This document shows, piece after piece, positions 5,395 to 56,700 of a DNA stretch of 64,000 nucleotides. Source of the stretch: Methylobacter sp. (GTDB lineage Bacteria > Pseudomonadota > Gammaproteobacteria > Methylococcales > Methylomonadaceae); the NCBI GenBank assembly GCA_026399025.1, contig JAPLRU010000038.1, positions 1 through 64,000 on the forward strand, given 5' to 3'. The position numbers were made by a program, and so were the translations under genes. The notes below the pieces were generated by a model that saw only the letters and a program-made list of their open reading frames with translations, was not told the origin of the DNA and ran no database searches. Each line of letters begins with the position of its first letter. Positions within the stretch are counted from its first letter, which is position 1.

Positions 5395-5946
5395 TTAGCT
5401 TAAAACAGGCATATCCGCATCAATATTTTGACCTGCATAGGTATGAATAATATTCATGTATTCTTTACCGGTTTTGCTTAATCTTTTCACCACAGCATGA
5501 AGAATACTCAAAACTTTCACTAATACCAGCTCATCAACACCGATTACATCTTTGCTTATCACCGCATCGACAAAATCGAATCCGGCTAATAAAAATGGGT
5601 TATCGCAGTTTATTTGAGTGTCTTTAAAATGATATTTATCAATCAGCAACTCAAGGATTTTGATCGCATCGGCATCATTTAGCGTCTTGTTATTTTCCAT
5701 ATCATAAGCGCAAAAAGCGCCTTCAACGGCGTTGCTGTAACCCGTCAATTCAGCACTTTCGTGTATTTGCTGGGTGGTAAAAGACGGTACTTCGTTGTAT
5801 TTCCGTTTCGGCTTTTGATAGTACGAGCAATCCAAACATAAGTCTTCTTTACGCGTAGTTCCGCAGCACTGGCTACAGACTAATCCGTTCGCGATGACGC
5901 ACTGTCTTTTGCCTTTTCTTGAATTACATACGGGGCATTTAGCCAT
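5395..5946 (-). CDS. Zinc-ribbon protein of unknown function
   Basis: A 183-residue protein that I do not recognise beyond its N-terminus. Cysteines at 4, 7, 16, 24, 27, 28, 37 and 40 in C-x2-C pairs suggest one or two zinc-binding ribbons, like the short metal-binding heads of SEC-C or FmdB-type proteins. The rest (about 50-183) is probably helical with no signal peptide or membrane segment. The frame stays open to 6072, but the codons upstream of the ATG at 5946 run into the CACGAAG repeat and give a Cys/Phe-rich unrelated stretch, so 5946 is preferred. No operon partner is seen. Confidence 0.65.
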   Translation of the reverse strand: MAKCPVCNSRKGKRQCVIANGLVCSQCCGTTRKEDLCLDCSYYQKPKRKYNEVPSFTTQQIHESAELTGYSNAVEGAFCAYDMENNKTLNDADAIKILELLIDKYHFKDTQINCDNPFLLAGFDFVDAVISKDVIGVDELVLVKVLSILHAVVKRLSKTGKEYMNIIHTYAGQNIDADMPVLS

Positions 5947-6020
5947 ATCTGCTTTCTCTGTAAATAGGTGTTCCTGCCAAGCCGGACAACATGCCGGAGG
6001 ACAGTCTATATAAAAGCATC

Positions 6021-6354
6021 TCACCACGAAGGCACGAAGAACACGAAGGAAAAACTTGATGATCGTTCCCACGCTCCGGCGTCACTGCCATTAAGTTAAG
6101 AAAAAAAGCTCCCTCTCCTGCTGGAGAGGGTTGGGGTGAGGAGAATAAAAATAAGGAAAAAAGCTTTATTTGATCCCCTCATCCTAACCTAATCATGCTG
6201 GACTATCCTGTCCAGCACCCTACGGGCGAGTGCAAATCCGCTCCCGGCGGATTTGTCCCGGAGGGAGAAGGGACTGTCCATCCTTAACTTAATGGCAGTG
6301 ACGCTCCGGCGTGGGAACGATAAAACCTTCGTGTCCTTCGTGCCTTCGTGGTGA
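6021..6354. repeat. Nested palindromic element, CACGAAG repeat outside
   Basis: This gene-free 334-bp block is built as shells. The outer arms 6021-6049 and 6326-6354 are CACGAAG-family and are reverse complements with one mismatch over 29 bases. Inside them, arms 6062-6100 and 6283-6321 share the GTTCCCACGCTCCGGCGTCACTG / CCATTAAGTTAAG sequence in inverted orientation. The core (about 6110-6280) has a third pair-like set rich in CCCTCTCC/GGAGGGAG and a short hairpin around 6200-6225. No protein frame of note lies inside. It resembles a MITE-like or composite repeat; no terminal duplication was confirmed. Confidence 0.8.
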
Positions 6355-6364
6355 ATAAATGCGT

Positions 6365-8155
6365 TTAATCCTTAACTTTCTCTTTTCCCGCCGGCTTAAT
6401 CAAGCGAATGCCCAGCTCTTTCAACTGCTCATCGGTGACCACCGCCGGTGCGCTGACCAAAGGACAAGCCGCCGATTGGGTTTTAGGAAAAGCGATTACA
6501 TCACGAATAGAGGTTGACCCGGTCATCAGCATGACCAAACGATCAAGGCCGAAGGCCAAACCGCCATGCGGAGGCGCGCCGTATTTCAACGCATCCAACA
6601 GGAAGCCGAATTTTTCCCTGGCTTCGTCTTCGCCTATGCCTAAAATTTCAAACACGGTTTGTTGCATCGACGTGCGGTTGATACGGATTGAACCGCCGCC
6701 GACTTCAGTGCCGTTTAGAACTAAATCGTAAGCGCGCGATAATGCCGCGCCCGGATTGGCGACCAACTCTTCAACCGAGCAGCTGGGCGCGGTGAAGGGG
6801 TGATGGATGGCGTTGTAACGGCCGCTTTTTTCGTCCCAATCGAACATCGGGAAATCGACGACCCACACTGGCTTCCAATCGCCTTGCAGCAGGTTAAGGT
6901 CATGGCCCAGTTTGACTCGCAATGCGCCCATCGCTTCATTAACGATGCCGGCTTTATCCGCGCCGAAGAAAATTAAATCGCCGTTTTGCGCGCCGGTTTT
7001 GGCTAACACGCTGTCCCAAACTTCAGCCGGGGCGAATTTAACGATAGGCGACTGCAAGCCGTCGACGCCTGCGGACAAGTCGTTGACTTTAATATAAGCC
7101 AAGCCTCTGGCGCCGTATATGCTGACATATTTGGTCAACGCATCAATGTCTTTGCGGCTTAAATCGCCCGCATTCGGTACACGCATCGCCACGACGCGGC
7201 CTTTCGGATCATTCGCCGGGGCCGAGAAAACCTTGAAATCAACGTCTTTCATGTCGTCGGCAATATCGACCAATTCCAGCGGAATGCGCAAATCCGGCCT
7301 ATCGACACCGTAGCGCGACACCGCTTCCTGATGGGTCATGCGCGGGAATTTGTCGCCAAGATTCACGCCTATGACTTTAATAAACAGCTGGCGGATCATT
7401 TCCTCCATCACATGCATGATTTCGTTTTCATCCATGAACGAGGTTTCAATATCCAACTGGGTAAATTCAGGCTGACGGTCGGCGCGCAAATCTTCATCGC
7501 GGAAACAACGCACGACTTGATAATAGCGGTCCATGCCCGCCACCATCAGCATTTGTTTGTACAATTGCGGCGATTGCGGCAGCGCGAAAAACGCATTTTC
7601 GTGGGTGCGGCTCGGTACGATGTAATCGCGCGCGCCCTCGGGTGTGGCTTTAGTTAAATACGGCGTTTCGATTTCGAAAAACTCGTGGTCGTCGAGAAAG
7701 TTTCTTAACACCCGCGTCACATCGCGGCGCACTTTCATTTTTTCCTGCATCACAGTGCGGCGCAAATCGATATAACGATAACGCAAACGCAGTTCTTCGT
7801 TGACTTCGATTTCGCTTTCGACCGGGAACGGCGGCGTTTCCGATTCATTCAGCACGACGATGTTTTTAGCCAGGATTTCAATCGCACCGGAATGCATATT
7901 GGCGTTAACCGTGCCTTCGGGACGATTGCGAACCAGGCCGGTAATTTGTAATACATATTCACTGCGGACGCTTTCAGCAGTGGCGAAGGTGTCGGCTACG
8001 TCGGGATCGACCACGACTTGCACCAAGCCGGCGCGGTCTCTCAGGTCGATAAAAATAACGCCGCCGTGATCCCGGCGTCTATGCACCCAACCGCAGATTG
8101 AAACCGTTTCGCCTAGCTGATGTGTGTTTAATTCTCCGCACTTGTGAGTACGCAT
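6365..8155 (-). CDS. aspS: Aspartyl-tRNA synthetase
   Basis: Charges tRNA-Asp in the cytoplasm. The 596 residues carry the N-terminal OB-fold anticodon-binding domain (about 1-105; [11 protein letters not shown] near 22-32). A class II catalytic core follows with motif 2 ([18 protein letters not shown]) and motif 3 ([10 protein letters not shown] near the end). The bacterial GAD insertion domain lies between them. Length matches the bacterial type. The enzyme could be discriminating or non-discriminating; amidotransferase genes are not in the window. It follows fmdB on the same strand, an arrangement common in gammaproteobacteria. Confidence 0.97.
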
Positions 8156-53025: not shown

Positions 53026-53326
53026 AACATTCTCCGCAATACATTTAAATCAATTAAGCAAATTTACTAGGCAACGGAAACCGGTGGCTTTGATGTTCAA
53101 ACCTCCCCTTCCACTGCATAGCCCTCACCTTGCCTCACAGGAGCTGTCAAATTCATAAGCACCGCGTGGGGCAATGTCCGTTTAAATTTTCTTTATTTCT
53201 CAACTCGTTGTGACTACAGTTACTTTATTATTATGGGCCGAAGGGCCGAAGAAAAAATTCGTATGAATACTTAGGCCACTTGTAATAAATCACGAACACA
53301 CTGGAACGCAGATGACACAGATCGAT

Positions 53327-53445
53327 GTAGGCCGGAATAAGCCGGTCCGCGCTTTAGCGCGGATCGGCGGTTCCGGCATTCCGAAGCTTGGGAGTGCCGG
53401 AAACGCCCACCCTGGCTATCGCCGGGCGGGCTTATTCCGGCCTAC
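53327..53445. repeat. Palindromic element with 17-base perfect arms
   Basis: GTAGGCCGGAATAAGCC (53327-53343) and its exact complement (53429-53445) enclose a GC-rich core with further inner pairing. A fragment CCGGAATAA also occurs near 13655. Together with 53480-53745 it makes the 754-base gap downstream of the Hsp20 start almost all repeat. Confidence 0.75.
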
Positions 53446-53479
53446 GTTCTATCTTGAACAAACTTGTGTATAAAGACGA

Positions 53480-53745
53480 GCGCTCCGGCGTCCCATACCG
53501 CTAGAGCGGTACTTCGGCATTCCCACGCCGGAGAGGCTGTGAAAGTATTATCAAAATCAGTTTAAAAACCTATTCACCACGAAGACACGAAGTTCACGAA
53601 GAAAAAATAATTGATTAAACTCAACGCATTAAAAACTTCGTGTCCTTCGTGTCCTTCGTGGTGAAGGCTTTTGCTTTTGTTCTAAAACGAATACTTTCAC
53701 AGTCTCCGGAGCGTGGGAACGATGTCGCTTTATTCACTTTGGGCT
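53480..53745. repeat. Nested palindromic element, CACGAAG repeat inside
   Basis: Outer part: GCGCTCCGGCGTCCCA (53480 on) and CTCCGGAGCGTGGGAACGATGTCGC (53704 on). Next shell: CTGTGAAAGTAT (53537-53548) against ATACTTTCACAG (53691-53702), perfect. Innermost: the CACGAAG-family arms 53573-53602 and 53636-53665. The nesting order of the two shared families is the reverse of that at 6021-6354. Confidence 0.8.
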
Positions 53746-53779
53746 ACATATGAAAAATCCGCTAACCTTTTAAAACGGT

Positions 53780-56700
53780 TCAATTAGTATCGGTCTCATA
53801 ATTCAACTTGATTCTTTGAGAAGTACCGGTCTGGGTTTCAACATTCAAGCTTTTGCTCAATTTACGCTTTAATACCAACACCACCTGTTTATTGAACAGT
53901 CCGACTTTGGTTCCCACATAAAAATTCGGCGTCAGGTATTGGCCTACCGTCGCCATCGTATCCTGCAACGTTTTTCCTTGTTCGACTTCAAACTCGCTGA
54001 CGCCCAGCTTGTCGGCAAGCCATGACGCTTGGCCTGCACCGTAAGACAACGCGGCCGAGGCAACCATATTGCCTTCCGCTTGACTGACCTGATTTAACGG
54101 CCCGCCGGTTACTAAATAGGCCAGTACTTCTTCTTCCGGCAATGCCGGTTCTGAAGATAAACTGGTTTTCGGCGCATCCAGCGGGCCGGTCAGGTTCAAA
54201 ATAGCGGTCACATCCTTGCCTTTGGAAACGCGTATGGCTTCCACCTCCAGCCAAGGCTTATCGACCGGGCCGTTAAATTGAATCCGGCCTTTACGTACAG
54301 TCAAATCCTGCCCGTAACTTTTATAGCGCGCCTTGTCCATGTCGATATTGCCATACATCGCCAATGTTTCTCCGCTCTTGGTCAGCTTCAATTTGCCGCT
54401 GAGATCGGTCTTCAAGCCTTGCCCTGAAAAATTGACTTGTTTACCGAGTTCAATGTCTATATCAACGTCAATAGGAACGGCGACCGCCGTGTTTTGCACG
54501 GTTTTTTGTTCGCCGACAATCACTTCGTCAGGGCTGACTTTTACCGCATTTTCAGGCAGTTGCGGCAACTGTATAACGGCTTTGGGGATGATTAACTTAC
54601 CGCTCAGTTTTCTTTGTCGTTCGCTAAACAGTCCTTTTAATTGCGGCGAAACCGCGATTTGAGCTTCCGGCAATTTAGCCACTTCAAAATCCGTTCCGAT
54701 CAGCATGAACTCGCCGGTGCCTTGCAGCGTGGCAAAGCCGTCGAGCTGAATAAAACCTTGCCCCGATTTTGCCGATCCGCTGAGCTGAATGCGCCCGCCA
54801 TCCCCGACAGCAGAAAGCGCCTGAAGTTTGATGTCGCGGATTTCAAGCCCCAGCTCGTCGAAATCAACCGCTCCGCCGCTGAATGTTACCGTCCCGTTAA
54901 CGATGGGCTTGTCGCTGCGACCTTGCAAGGCTAAATTCGCTTTCAGCTCGCCTTTAATATTGGTTAGCTGCGGCACAAAAGGATTCAACAGCGCAAAGTT
55001 AAGCACCGATCCCGTTATCTGTCCGCCTAAGGTTTTAGCTGTGCCGGTGTCCAATTGCAGTTGTCCGCGCAGATAATCTTGGCCGGTCAGAGCCAAATCA
55101 AAATCCGCTGAAACCGTCTTCGCTTGCAGTTTTCCGGATACTCGCCACGGCCCCAACGTAAACTCAACCGGGCCGCCTTGTTGGTTCGGTAACACAATTT
55201 TTGAATGGGCCGGTACCGTCAGCCCGAAATTGCCGTTCAGCCGACCTTTTTGCTGTTGTATATCCGCATCGGCATTGATAACGCCGTTTATCTGCATGTT
55301 TTCCGGCAAATAAACTTTGATCAAGCTGATAGGCAACGCGGTGGCGTTCACTTTAAATTGAAAATCGCCGCTAGCCGGATAACGCCCTTGTAAGCAAAGA
55401 GCGGCGGCTTGTTGAACCAAACACGCTCTTGCCAAGGTGACATCGATACCGGCAGACGTTTTTGCGGCGCGAACGCTCAAATTATTGGTAAGCTGCCAGC
55501 GGCCTGAATCGCGGCTATTCAAATCCAGCCTGGAAAAATCGCCCTGCCAGATACCGCCCTTAAAACTGCCGGTCAGCGCACTGGATAAATCGCCGTAAGA
55601 AGAATTGATGTCGGCTTTAAATTGATGTTGCTCAAGCGTACCGAAGCCCTCAATCAACAATTTTGAAATTTCCGTGTTGCCGGTTTTGATCGCATTGACG
55701 GACAGTTGTAGTTTGGAGGTTTGTTCAGGTTGATAGTCGATATTAACGGCCAACTGCTCGGCGCTGTGCTCGGCAAAATGCAAATGCTTGCCGCTCGCCT
55801 GAAATTGCACCGACGGCTTAAGCCACGCTCCTTGCAAACGCCCGTCGCCTTTCAAGCTGCCGCCCAGATTCGGCCATAACGAGTCCAAAGCCGGGGCGTC
55901 GATAGCCACAACAAGAGCCGCTTGCTCCTGTCCCAAACTGCCGTTAACAGCAATTTTATTACGTCCGGAAGTCACCTGTAAGGCGTCGACCTTCAGTTGT
56001 TCGTTAGCCAAAGCCAGCTTGCCGCCCGCGCTAACCGGGTAGCCGCGTAACTTGCCTGACAGCTTGTTAATATCGACGTCCAGTTGTAACGCTTTACCGT
56101 CCAACTTGCCTTTGAGCAAGGTGCTAAAAGTCAGGCTGCCGGGAAGTTCGGGTAACAGGATGGCCGGATTAAAATGTTGCCCGCTTGCGCTCAGATCGAA
56201 AGCGGTAGCGCCTTTCCAAGAGACAGTGCCGTCAATCTGAAACGCCCCCTCCGCTGAGGTAAGCGCCAGTTCTTTAATCGTTAACGCTTCCGTGCTGCCT
56301 TGGCCTTTAAAAGTTAATCGCGATTTCGATAAATACGGCTGGGTTAACTCTGCGTTTAGCGCAATCCGGTAATCGCTGAGCAAACCATCCAGCTCAAGCG
56401 TTCCCCGCTCGCTGCTGAGTTGCGCTTTGCCGCCGCCGAGCGGCCAGTTCAGCTGTTGCCAATCGCCGTGTGCTGTGATGCGCGGCGCATCGGGCAAATT
56501 TTCCAGCTTACCTTTTAGCGTTGATTTGAATGGCGATGACAGCCGATTATCGAAATCCAGTCGATGCATATCGCCGCTGAGCGTCGACATCGCGTGCCAT
56601 ACACCATAATCCGCGCTGCTCACCTGCCAGTCGGCCGTCAAACTCAAGGGAAAGCCCTTGCCCAAGCCGACCTGCCCTGTTGCCGTTGCCGACACCGGTT

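Follow-up and report, generated by a model that had tools for sequence, protein, structure and literature searches.

The two nested palindromes considered here, from a Methylobacter genome, are in all likelihood stacks of non-autonomous mobile elements built up by successive insertions. An older REP-like hairpin (B) probably received a MITE (C) by way of an IS1182-type transposase, and a second MITE (D) came to lie on the same axis. The window, that is, the whole 64,000-nucleotide stretch of DNA analysed, is part of contig 110 of an assembly of 5.23 Mb in 138 contigs (the own genome in what follows), and its repeat families are labelled A, B, C, D, E, F, G and R. At locus 1 (6021-6354), which lies 3′ of a gene read as aspS (6365-8155; tRNA-synt_2 and GAD domains), a CACGAAG hairpin (E) encloses B and B encloses D, giving the linear order E-B-D-(G)-D-B-E. 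At locus 2 (53519-53720), flanked by genes for Hsp20 and TamB, B encloses C and C encloses E; the linear order is B-C-E-C-B, with an A arm outside (Table 1).

Two Nested Palindromes

Both nests are real, as judged from arm complementarity, shuffled sequences and motif counts. The outer arms of locus 1 are 29 nt long and 97% complementary and, as the original prediction held, these CACGAAG arms enclose a further pair of 39 nt (6062-6100 and 6283-6321; 90% complementary). Each 39-nt arm consists of two things, a B half-hairpin and the end of MITE D. At locus 2, hairpin arms at 53519-53528 and 53711-53720 surround the C ends (53533-53549 and 53690-53706), and C surrounds E. The innermost position predicted for CACGAAG at this locus stands, whereas the CTCCGG sequence near 53485 is not what pairs with the right arm; the true left partner is ATTCCCACGC-CGGA.

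An exact 12-nt inverted repeat appears in just 2 of 200 mononucleotide shuffles of each stretch (5900-6400 and 53200-53800). Across the own genome, CACCACGAAG occurs 250+237 times against 2+1 for its reversed-pattern control, while CGTTCCCACGCTCCGG (85+79), CTGTGAAAGTAT (108+84) and, at ≤1 mismatch, CACTGCCATTAAGTTAAG (46+42) each have a control count of 0. Places taken from the arm-motif and C-end pattern searches are the first ones among the matches listed. The own-genome samples cover 0.91 Mb (B-copy listing and empty B hairpins) and 0.97 Mb (nesting) of the 5.23 Mb and were partly picked around listed B, C, D and E places; occupancy fractions are therefore inflated, with comparisons between stem types less affected. 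Several contigs, among them C23, C27, C31, C33, C38, C59 and C68, end in or beside B or D copies, and longer nests may thus be absent from the assembly.

Table 1. Coordinates of the repeat features at the two loci, in positions of the window.
Feature	Position	Strand	Evidence
E hairpin, left arm (TCACCACGAAGGCACGAAGAACACGAAGG); outermost shell of locus 1	6021..6049	+	97% complementary to 6326-6354; plain E at the same place in G011 and G018
B REP-like hairpin (TTCCCACGC), left half, including 12-bp direct repeat ACGCTCCGGCGT (6071-6082)	6062..6082	+	Unoccupied B hairpins at other places in the genome
D MITE, 218 bp, ends CACTGCCATTAAGTTAAG / CTTAACTTAATGGCAGTG, at the B axis	6083..6300	.	12-bp duplication on both sides
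Insert G, ~64 nt, two hairpins, within D	6190..6255 (borders approximate)	.	Comparison of D copies; absent in 153-154-bp D copies
Second ACGCTCCGGCGT copy and B right half	6301..6321	+	Arm pairing, sequence
E hairpin, right arm, locus 1	6326..6354	+	Complementarity to left arm
B left half: ATTCCCACGC and CGGA (centre, first duplication copy)	53519..53532	+	Sequence
C MITE, IS1182-type ends GAGRCTGTGAAAGTATT / AATACTTTCACAGTCTC, composite with E inside	53533..53706	.	Autonomous IS (L285) with the same kind of ends
E hairpin within C	53573..53665	.	E in 35/38 paired C copies, own-genome sample
CGGA (second duplication copy) and GCGTGGGAAC, B right half	53707..53720	+	Sequence
A-family arm (GTCGCTTTATTCACTT...), flanking many B copies; outermost remnant of locus 2	53724..53750	-	Sequence, B-copy listing
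Neighbouring GTAG-type REP dimer R, outside the nest	53327..53445	.	Inverted-repeat and B-copy listings

The REP-Like Hairpin and Accompanying Repeats

B is a dispersed REP-like hairpin, TTCCCACGC-TCCG-GCGTGGGAA, with a CGGA centre on the other strand and the general form TTCCCA(C/A)GC-NNNN-GC(G/T)TGGGAA. It often forms an inverted doublet, mostly with 71-76 nt between the arms and with other small hairpins in between. Its copy number (85+79 exact 16-mers) and these doublets are those of a REP or REPIN, while the GTAG tag of such repeats is absent from the ends of the listed B copies. Empty B hairpins are plentiful, with 56 matches at ≤3 mismatches in 0.91 Mb, one of which is a C junction. The idea that B is the REP of the RAYT of this genome was rejected: of its four Y1-family loci, three are without a B hairpin (≤3 mismatches) and the fourth is without a B arm. 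In B doublets (e.g. G000:C11:92482 and C26:7637), side-by-side hairpins carry closely similar tips (e.g. GCTCCAGC) on differing stems, TTCCCAC, GGGAC, GCAAC and TACC.

Smaller repeats accompany the nests. The R dimer, GTAGGCCGGAATAAG...CTTATTCCGGCCTAC, has the classical layout of a GTAG REP pair; it adjoins locus 2 and is also present within some B copies. F is a 47-nt insert (CGACT...TTGCCGA) in the arms of E and D (e.g. G000:C34:16244, C73:12090, L136 and L146). The left flank of F is AA or GA in 12 of 13 listed copies, which show no clear duplication. Both F and the ~64-nt G look like two-hairpin inserts, and presumably resemble IS200/IS605-derived palindrome-associated mini-elements.

MITE C and Its Target

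C is a MITE with 17-bp ends, GAGACTGTGAAAGTATT, and its target is the 4-nt centre of B, which is duplicated. By length and copy number (108+84 exact core matches in the own genome) it is a short, multicopy and presumably non-coding element. Lengths on a first list of copies run from 90 to 359 bp, a doubtful 553-bp pairing (L050) set aside, with 169-172 and 117 bp among the commonest. That list held 84 sites made unique by 20-nt flanks, 66 of them TTCCCA-type at ≤6 mismatches over both arms; the set used below, made unique by 18-nt flanks, allowed ≤3 mismatches per arm and took C copies with both ends, leaving out those with a single end.

This set comprises 94 distinct C-type insertions, 34 in the own genome and 60 elsewhere, three of which are full-length ISs. 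TTCCCA-type hairpins are the site in 73 (32/34 in the own genome, 41/60 elsewhere), and at 66 of these 73 both arms are recognisable. An exact 4-bp duplication, as expected of a target-site duplication, is found at 59 of the 94 sites against 0.37 expected, and the hairpin centre is exactly duplicated at 46 of the 73. The duplicated 4-mers include TCCA, TCCG, TGGA, CGGA, AGGA and others, and in hairpins they are the hairpin centre. Since the 4-mer varies between sites and yet matches on both sides, it derives from the target. An earlier reading as a 6-bp duplication was replaced by that of 4 bp, with element ends GAGACTG...CAGTCTC, which is preferred because it also fits sites in relatives.

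These duplications bear on a reading in which nothing is mobile: slippage during replication, or template switching, would have produced the shells as quasi-palindromes, or chance and recombination would have brought REP clusters side by side. Palindromes do mutate by template switching, several contigs end in B or D repeats, and at 8 of the 73 hairpin sites the 4-mer is inverted, not direct; the last is also what would be expected if arms had been exchanged between oppositely oriented copies. Against this stand the exact target-derived duplications, the occurrence of exact C ends in 20 of 61 genomes (own included; 5 of 25 genera), and a full IS with C-type ends in the same target. An origin without mobility is accordingly highly improbable.

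Insertion of C is the better reading, and its targeting needs both symmetry and stem sequence. C occupies 25 of the 88 dyads that carry both TTCCCA half-sites and 9 of the 452 places with one half-site alone (odds ratio 19.5, p 1e-14). In this count, a dyad with >1 mismatch in its second arm falls among the 9 one-sided sites; for empty dyads the limit was 2 mismatches. Of the 111 C ends in an own-genome sample, 91 border TTCCCA-type stems and none lies at GCAAC, GGGAC or TACC stems, among which 49 perfect hairpins with GC-NNNN-GC tips are all empty. With ends divided by 2 as an estimate of sites and set against perfect empty hairpins, TTCCCA hairpins hold ~45 insertions with 51 empty, other stems 0 with 49 empty (Fisher p 5e-11). 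The stem-type comparison and the dyad and half-site occupancy together reject hairpin tips in general as the target, which the original prediction had offered as one explanation. The 21 sites outside TTCCCA hairpins, 13 of them still with an exact 4-bp duplication, are hardly palindromic (means 3.3-3.5 of 9 arm pairs, against 2.5 for a swap control and 2.3 at random, both on the earlier set). Because symmetry and sequence both count, a two-fold symmetric transposase acting on duplex DNA fits better than a reader of any hairpin.

The latter enzyme would be an IS1182-type transposase that recognises an extruded cruciform or single-stranded hairpin of any sequence and duplicates its loop, a branch of the model of Wan et al. 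(2017). Hairpin targets free of a consensus are described for IS1272/TnSha1 in the available portions of PMC5678879 and PMC4923244, and stem length is slightly greater at occupied than at empty sites (9.2 vs 8.1, p 0.011) in sets picked with different mismatch limits. Such guidance by structure is nevertheless rather unlikely, given the 49 perfect hairpins left empty on other stems and the 13 exact duplications outside TTCCCA hairpins.

An IS1182-Family Partner

Among the matches listed for eight relatives searched, two C ends lie ~1.7 kb apart in Methylobacter tundripaludum SV96 (G019). They bound an IS of 1.7 kb (L285) that sits within a GTTCCCAAGC hairpin and has ends GAGACTGTGAAAGTATT / AATATTTTCACAGTCTC around a 500-aa transposase ORF. 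The transposase matches NF033551 (IS1182 family transposase; E 1.6e-121) and Pfam PF13751, PF05598 and PF01609, and C has its terminal inverted repeats in common with this autonomous IS1182-family element. All 9 IS ends read, at 8 Methylococcaceae loci, stand at TTCCCA-type arms; one copy is intact and the rest are partial or at contig edges.

C was also considered as a cassette moved by site-specific recombination of the tyrosine recombinase type, with the arms around a short core as the core site and the direct repeats as crossover cores. Arms with a 4-6-nt core do resemble attL/attR pairs. The full-length element with the same ends, however, encodes an IS1182-family DDE transposase, and the duplicated 4-mer tracks the target with no fixed core; the recombinase gene and fixed core that would mark such a system were not found. 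The cassette was given up once the IS1182 partner was found, and recombination of this type is scarcely credible.

Copies of the partner IS and of its relatives differ in their flanks. The intact SV96 copy has unlike flanks, with TCAA to its left and CGGA to its right. The reverse, CGGA left and TCAA right, is seen at two contig-end fragments of that genome (L339 and L338); if they belong to one copy, a reciprocal exchange between two IS copies would restore the TCAA and CGGA pairs. A 64%-identical IS in the MAG SZUA-142 is arranged as CTTTTGC-GTTC-IS-GTTC-GCAAAAG, that is, in a different palindrome with a 4-nt centre, which favours recognition of hairpins irrespective of sequence. A copy in SZUA-146 has unlike flanks, ATTC/GTAT. 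Among ten loci with IS1182-like matches, clear end repeats are found at three (L307, L308 and L331), with a clean palindromic target in L331 and not in L307 or L308. The L331 element (G003:C26) has a 29%-identical IS1182-like transposase and lies between perfect 10-bp arms, GACTAGGAGG / CCTCCTAGTC, without duplication, as in an IS1272-type replacement; its perfect arms count on the side of structure-guided targeting as well.

An IS1182-type partner transposase was not found in the own genome, nor was an IS5/IS1182 transposase with DUF772 at E 0.001. C is therefore probably an orphan there, or else the gene was lost or was not captured by the assembly.

A Second MITE on the Same Axis

D is a MITE whose ends, CACTGCCATTAAGTTAAG, differ from those of C. 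Copies were made unique by 15-nt flanks, leaving 15 in the own genome and 1 in a relative, with identical B-type sites merged and the window's own among them. An exact duplication of 10-12 bp accompanies 9 of these 16 distinct paired copies, within the 10-13 bp of IS4-type duplications, and includes ACGCTCCGGCGT, ACGCAGCGCGT, GGCCCTAGGCC and GGCCTAAAGGCT. The B-type duplication, ACGC-TCCG-GCGT, which is also that of locus 1 (12 bp), has the same axis centre as the TCCG of C. The single group of elements first suggested is not supported: at least two MITEs with different ends and duplication lengths share one axis.

The D ends resemble the IS4 end. Together with the 10-12-bp duplications this likens D to the IS4 group, as a resemblance only, and the best match to an IS4 model in the own genome, at 25 bits, falls far below the 115-bit cut-off. 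A partner transposase for D was not found in the own genome, and no partner came to light for B or E either. One locus (L134) was tried as an autonomous D element and rejected, as its long downstream ORF looks by eye like a membrane transporter. Comparison of D copies (L138, L147, L149, L150, L160 and the window's own) shows the G insert to be present in copies of 217-218 bp and in L138 (194 bp), and missing from those of 153-154 bp.

Nesting Order and Order of Events

In the 0.97-Mb sample, where arms were paired by a bracket rule with fuzzy arms and single entries are approximate, the paired elements are B (100), E (84), C (38), D (15), R (8) and A (7). Immediate containments are led by E within C (35) and C within B (26), followed by E within B (8), B within A (7), D within B (4) and R within B (3); E contains B, C and R once each. 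The commonest order is that of locus 2, in which B encloses C and C encloses E; there are 25 such chains, and A surrounds two of these. B between two paired E arms is found at locus 1 alone among the 84 E pairs. At other places in the own-genome sample, a single E arm lies beside B. The opposite orders described in the original prediction therefore both exist, although not as two equal kinds: C carries E as a composite in 35 of 38 copies, and B lies inside E just once. In two relatives, a C end has B hairpins just inside it (L165 in G022 and L169 in G015), the other C end not being seen; the order B inside C may thus be present in relatives as well.

The frequent union of C and E, and an A-B junction common to many listed copies, could also mean that only composites move, a B-C-E unit having spread as one block whose shells record one ancient nesting. 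This is very unlikely, given that C occupies now one, now the other hairpin of the B doublet, that its sites have varied stems and centres with matching duplications, and that many B copies are empty.

Stepwise insertion is better in accord with the comparison of relatives. An aspS query has matches in 22 of the 23 genomes of the genus, own included. Two congeners (G011 and G018) have a plain E hairpin 3′ of aspS, orthologous to locus 1, and three more (G019, G021 and G005) have E-like arms with other inserts inside. The remaining genomes have other hairpins or none there by motif scan, with G002 not comparable at this place. The plain E of the two congeners makes E the older shell at locus 1, to which the others were added stepwise, though no duplication is visible around B within the E loop. 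At locus 2, the tamB side has matches in 12 other genomes, in which no C or E arm was found beside tamB (≤620 bases viewed; 175 and 280 in two); the corresponding place in SV96 holds an R dimer and B-like arms, with no C or E. Insertion into the centres of older palindromes, the other explanation first put forward, is borne out by the axis-centred duplications (4 bp for C, 10-12 bp for D), the many empty hairpins and the two congeners with the outer shell only.

Proposed Mechanism and Its Implications

These loci could have been formed in the following manner. B would be an older, dispersed REP-like palindrome. An IS1182-family DDE transposase, with its gene in a congener and presumably once active in this lineage too, is proposed to recognise the 17-bp ends of its own IS and of C, and to join the C ends to B by a 4-bp staggered cut that spans its two-fold axis. 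Such a stagger would duplicate the 4-nt centre and leave the palindrome symmetric. C may first have acquired the E hairpin and then spread as a composite, whose insertion in B would yield the three shells of locus 2, with B outermost and E innermost. At locus 1, with the E hairpin already 3′ of aspS, a B copy would have entered the E loop, after which MITE D, with its 10-12-bp stagger, would have struck the same B axis to give D inside B inside E. Since each insertion would fall on a dyad and bring inverted ends of its own, nested shells would arise automatically, in an order set only by the sequence of arrival.

It is doubtful, though conceivable, that a branch of IS1182 reads the two-fold axis of a REP, possibly as a cruciform, and copies its 4-nt loop with the stem left in place. 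Every jump would then enlarge a palindrome without loss of symmetry and leave it open to further hits, and the repeats would renew themselves, one shell after another, as a landing platform shared by the unrelated transposases of C (IS1182-type) and D (IS4-like). Even the simpler steps above would account for nested repeats, a puzzling class, in ordinary terms. They would also provide an IS1182 system with loop duplication in place of hairpin deletion, a branch drawn as a possibility for IS1272 (PMC5678879). As C and D share one axis and differ in stagger, these REP palindromes are well suited to testing whether DDE transposases recognise symmetric duplex or extruded hairpins.

Relation to Known Systems

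A description of this kind of nesting was not found in the open-access literature on nested palindromes, MITEs and small dispersed repeats. The available text on Thiomargarita MITEs (PMC4853749) makes no mention of it, and the words 'nested' and 'IS1182' are absent from the main text of a 2024 review of prokaryotic MITEs (PMC10969869). For the repeat sequences themselves, no open-access paper is recognisable by title among the matches listed; one on toxin-antitoxin chaperones (PMC5105189) contains GTTCCCACGCT four times. The original prediction knew of no named element with this behaviour, and yet relatives do exist, namely IS1182/IS1272 and the REP-targeting ISs.

Like REPs, BIMEs and REPINs (PMC3733652, as far as its text is available; PMC3116915), B is a high-copy palindrome, often in an inverted doublet. 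Unlike them, it is without a GTAG tag at its ends in the listed copies, and the four Y1-family loci are without a B hairpin. The motifs GTTCCC and GGGAAC are absent from the main text of PMC3733652, which deals with GTAG/CGTC repeats.

The REP-targeting ISs ISRm22, ISPsy8 and ISPpu9/10 have a fixed insertion point in a dispersed palindrome, according to the portions of PMC1525189 at hand. In the same portions, ISRm22 (6-bp repeats) and ISPsy8 (3-bp repeats) lie on the REP symmetry axis, and the unlike repeats of ISRm22 are explained by Tobes and Pareja through recombination between copies. C likewise inserts at a fixed point of a dispersed palindrome, and unlike repeats are seen here too. It differs from these ISs, as they appear there, in being mostly a MITE that carries another repeat, in its IS1182 partner and in the second MITE on the same axis.

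The staphylococcal IS1272/TnSha1, as presented in the accessible parts of PMC5678879 and PMC4923244, likewise has an IS1182-family transposase and targets inverted repeats or potential stem-loops. IS1272, a member of the IS1182 family, is described there as replacing or partly deleting stem-loops, with no duplication and no sequence consensus; its model includes a branch with loop duplication (Wan et al., 2017, PMC5678879, same parts). C, in contrast, mostly retains the stem, with both arms at 66/73 sites and the centre duplicated at 46/73, and prefers TTCCCA stems (91/111 ends, 0 at the other three). A MITE family of IS1182 origin that leaves the stem of one particular REP in place while duplicating its centre, joined by a second MITE on the same axis, is a variant of these known systems.
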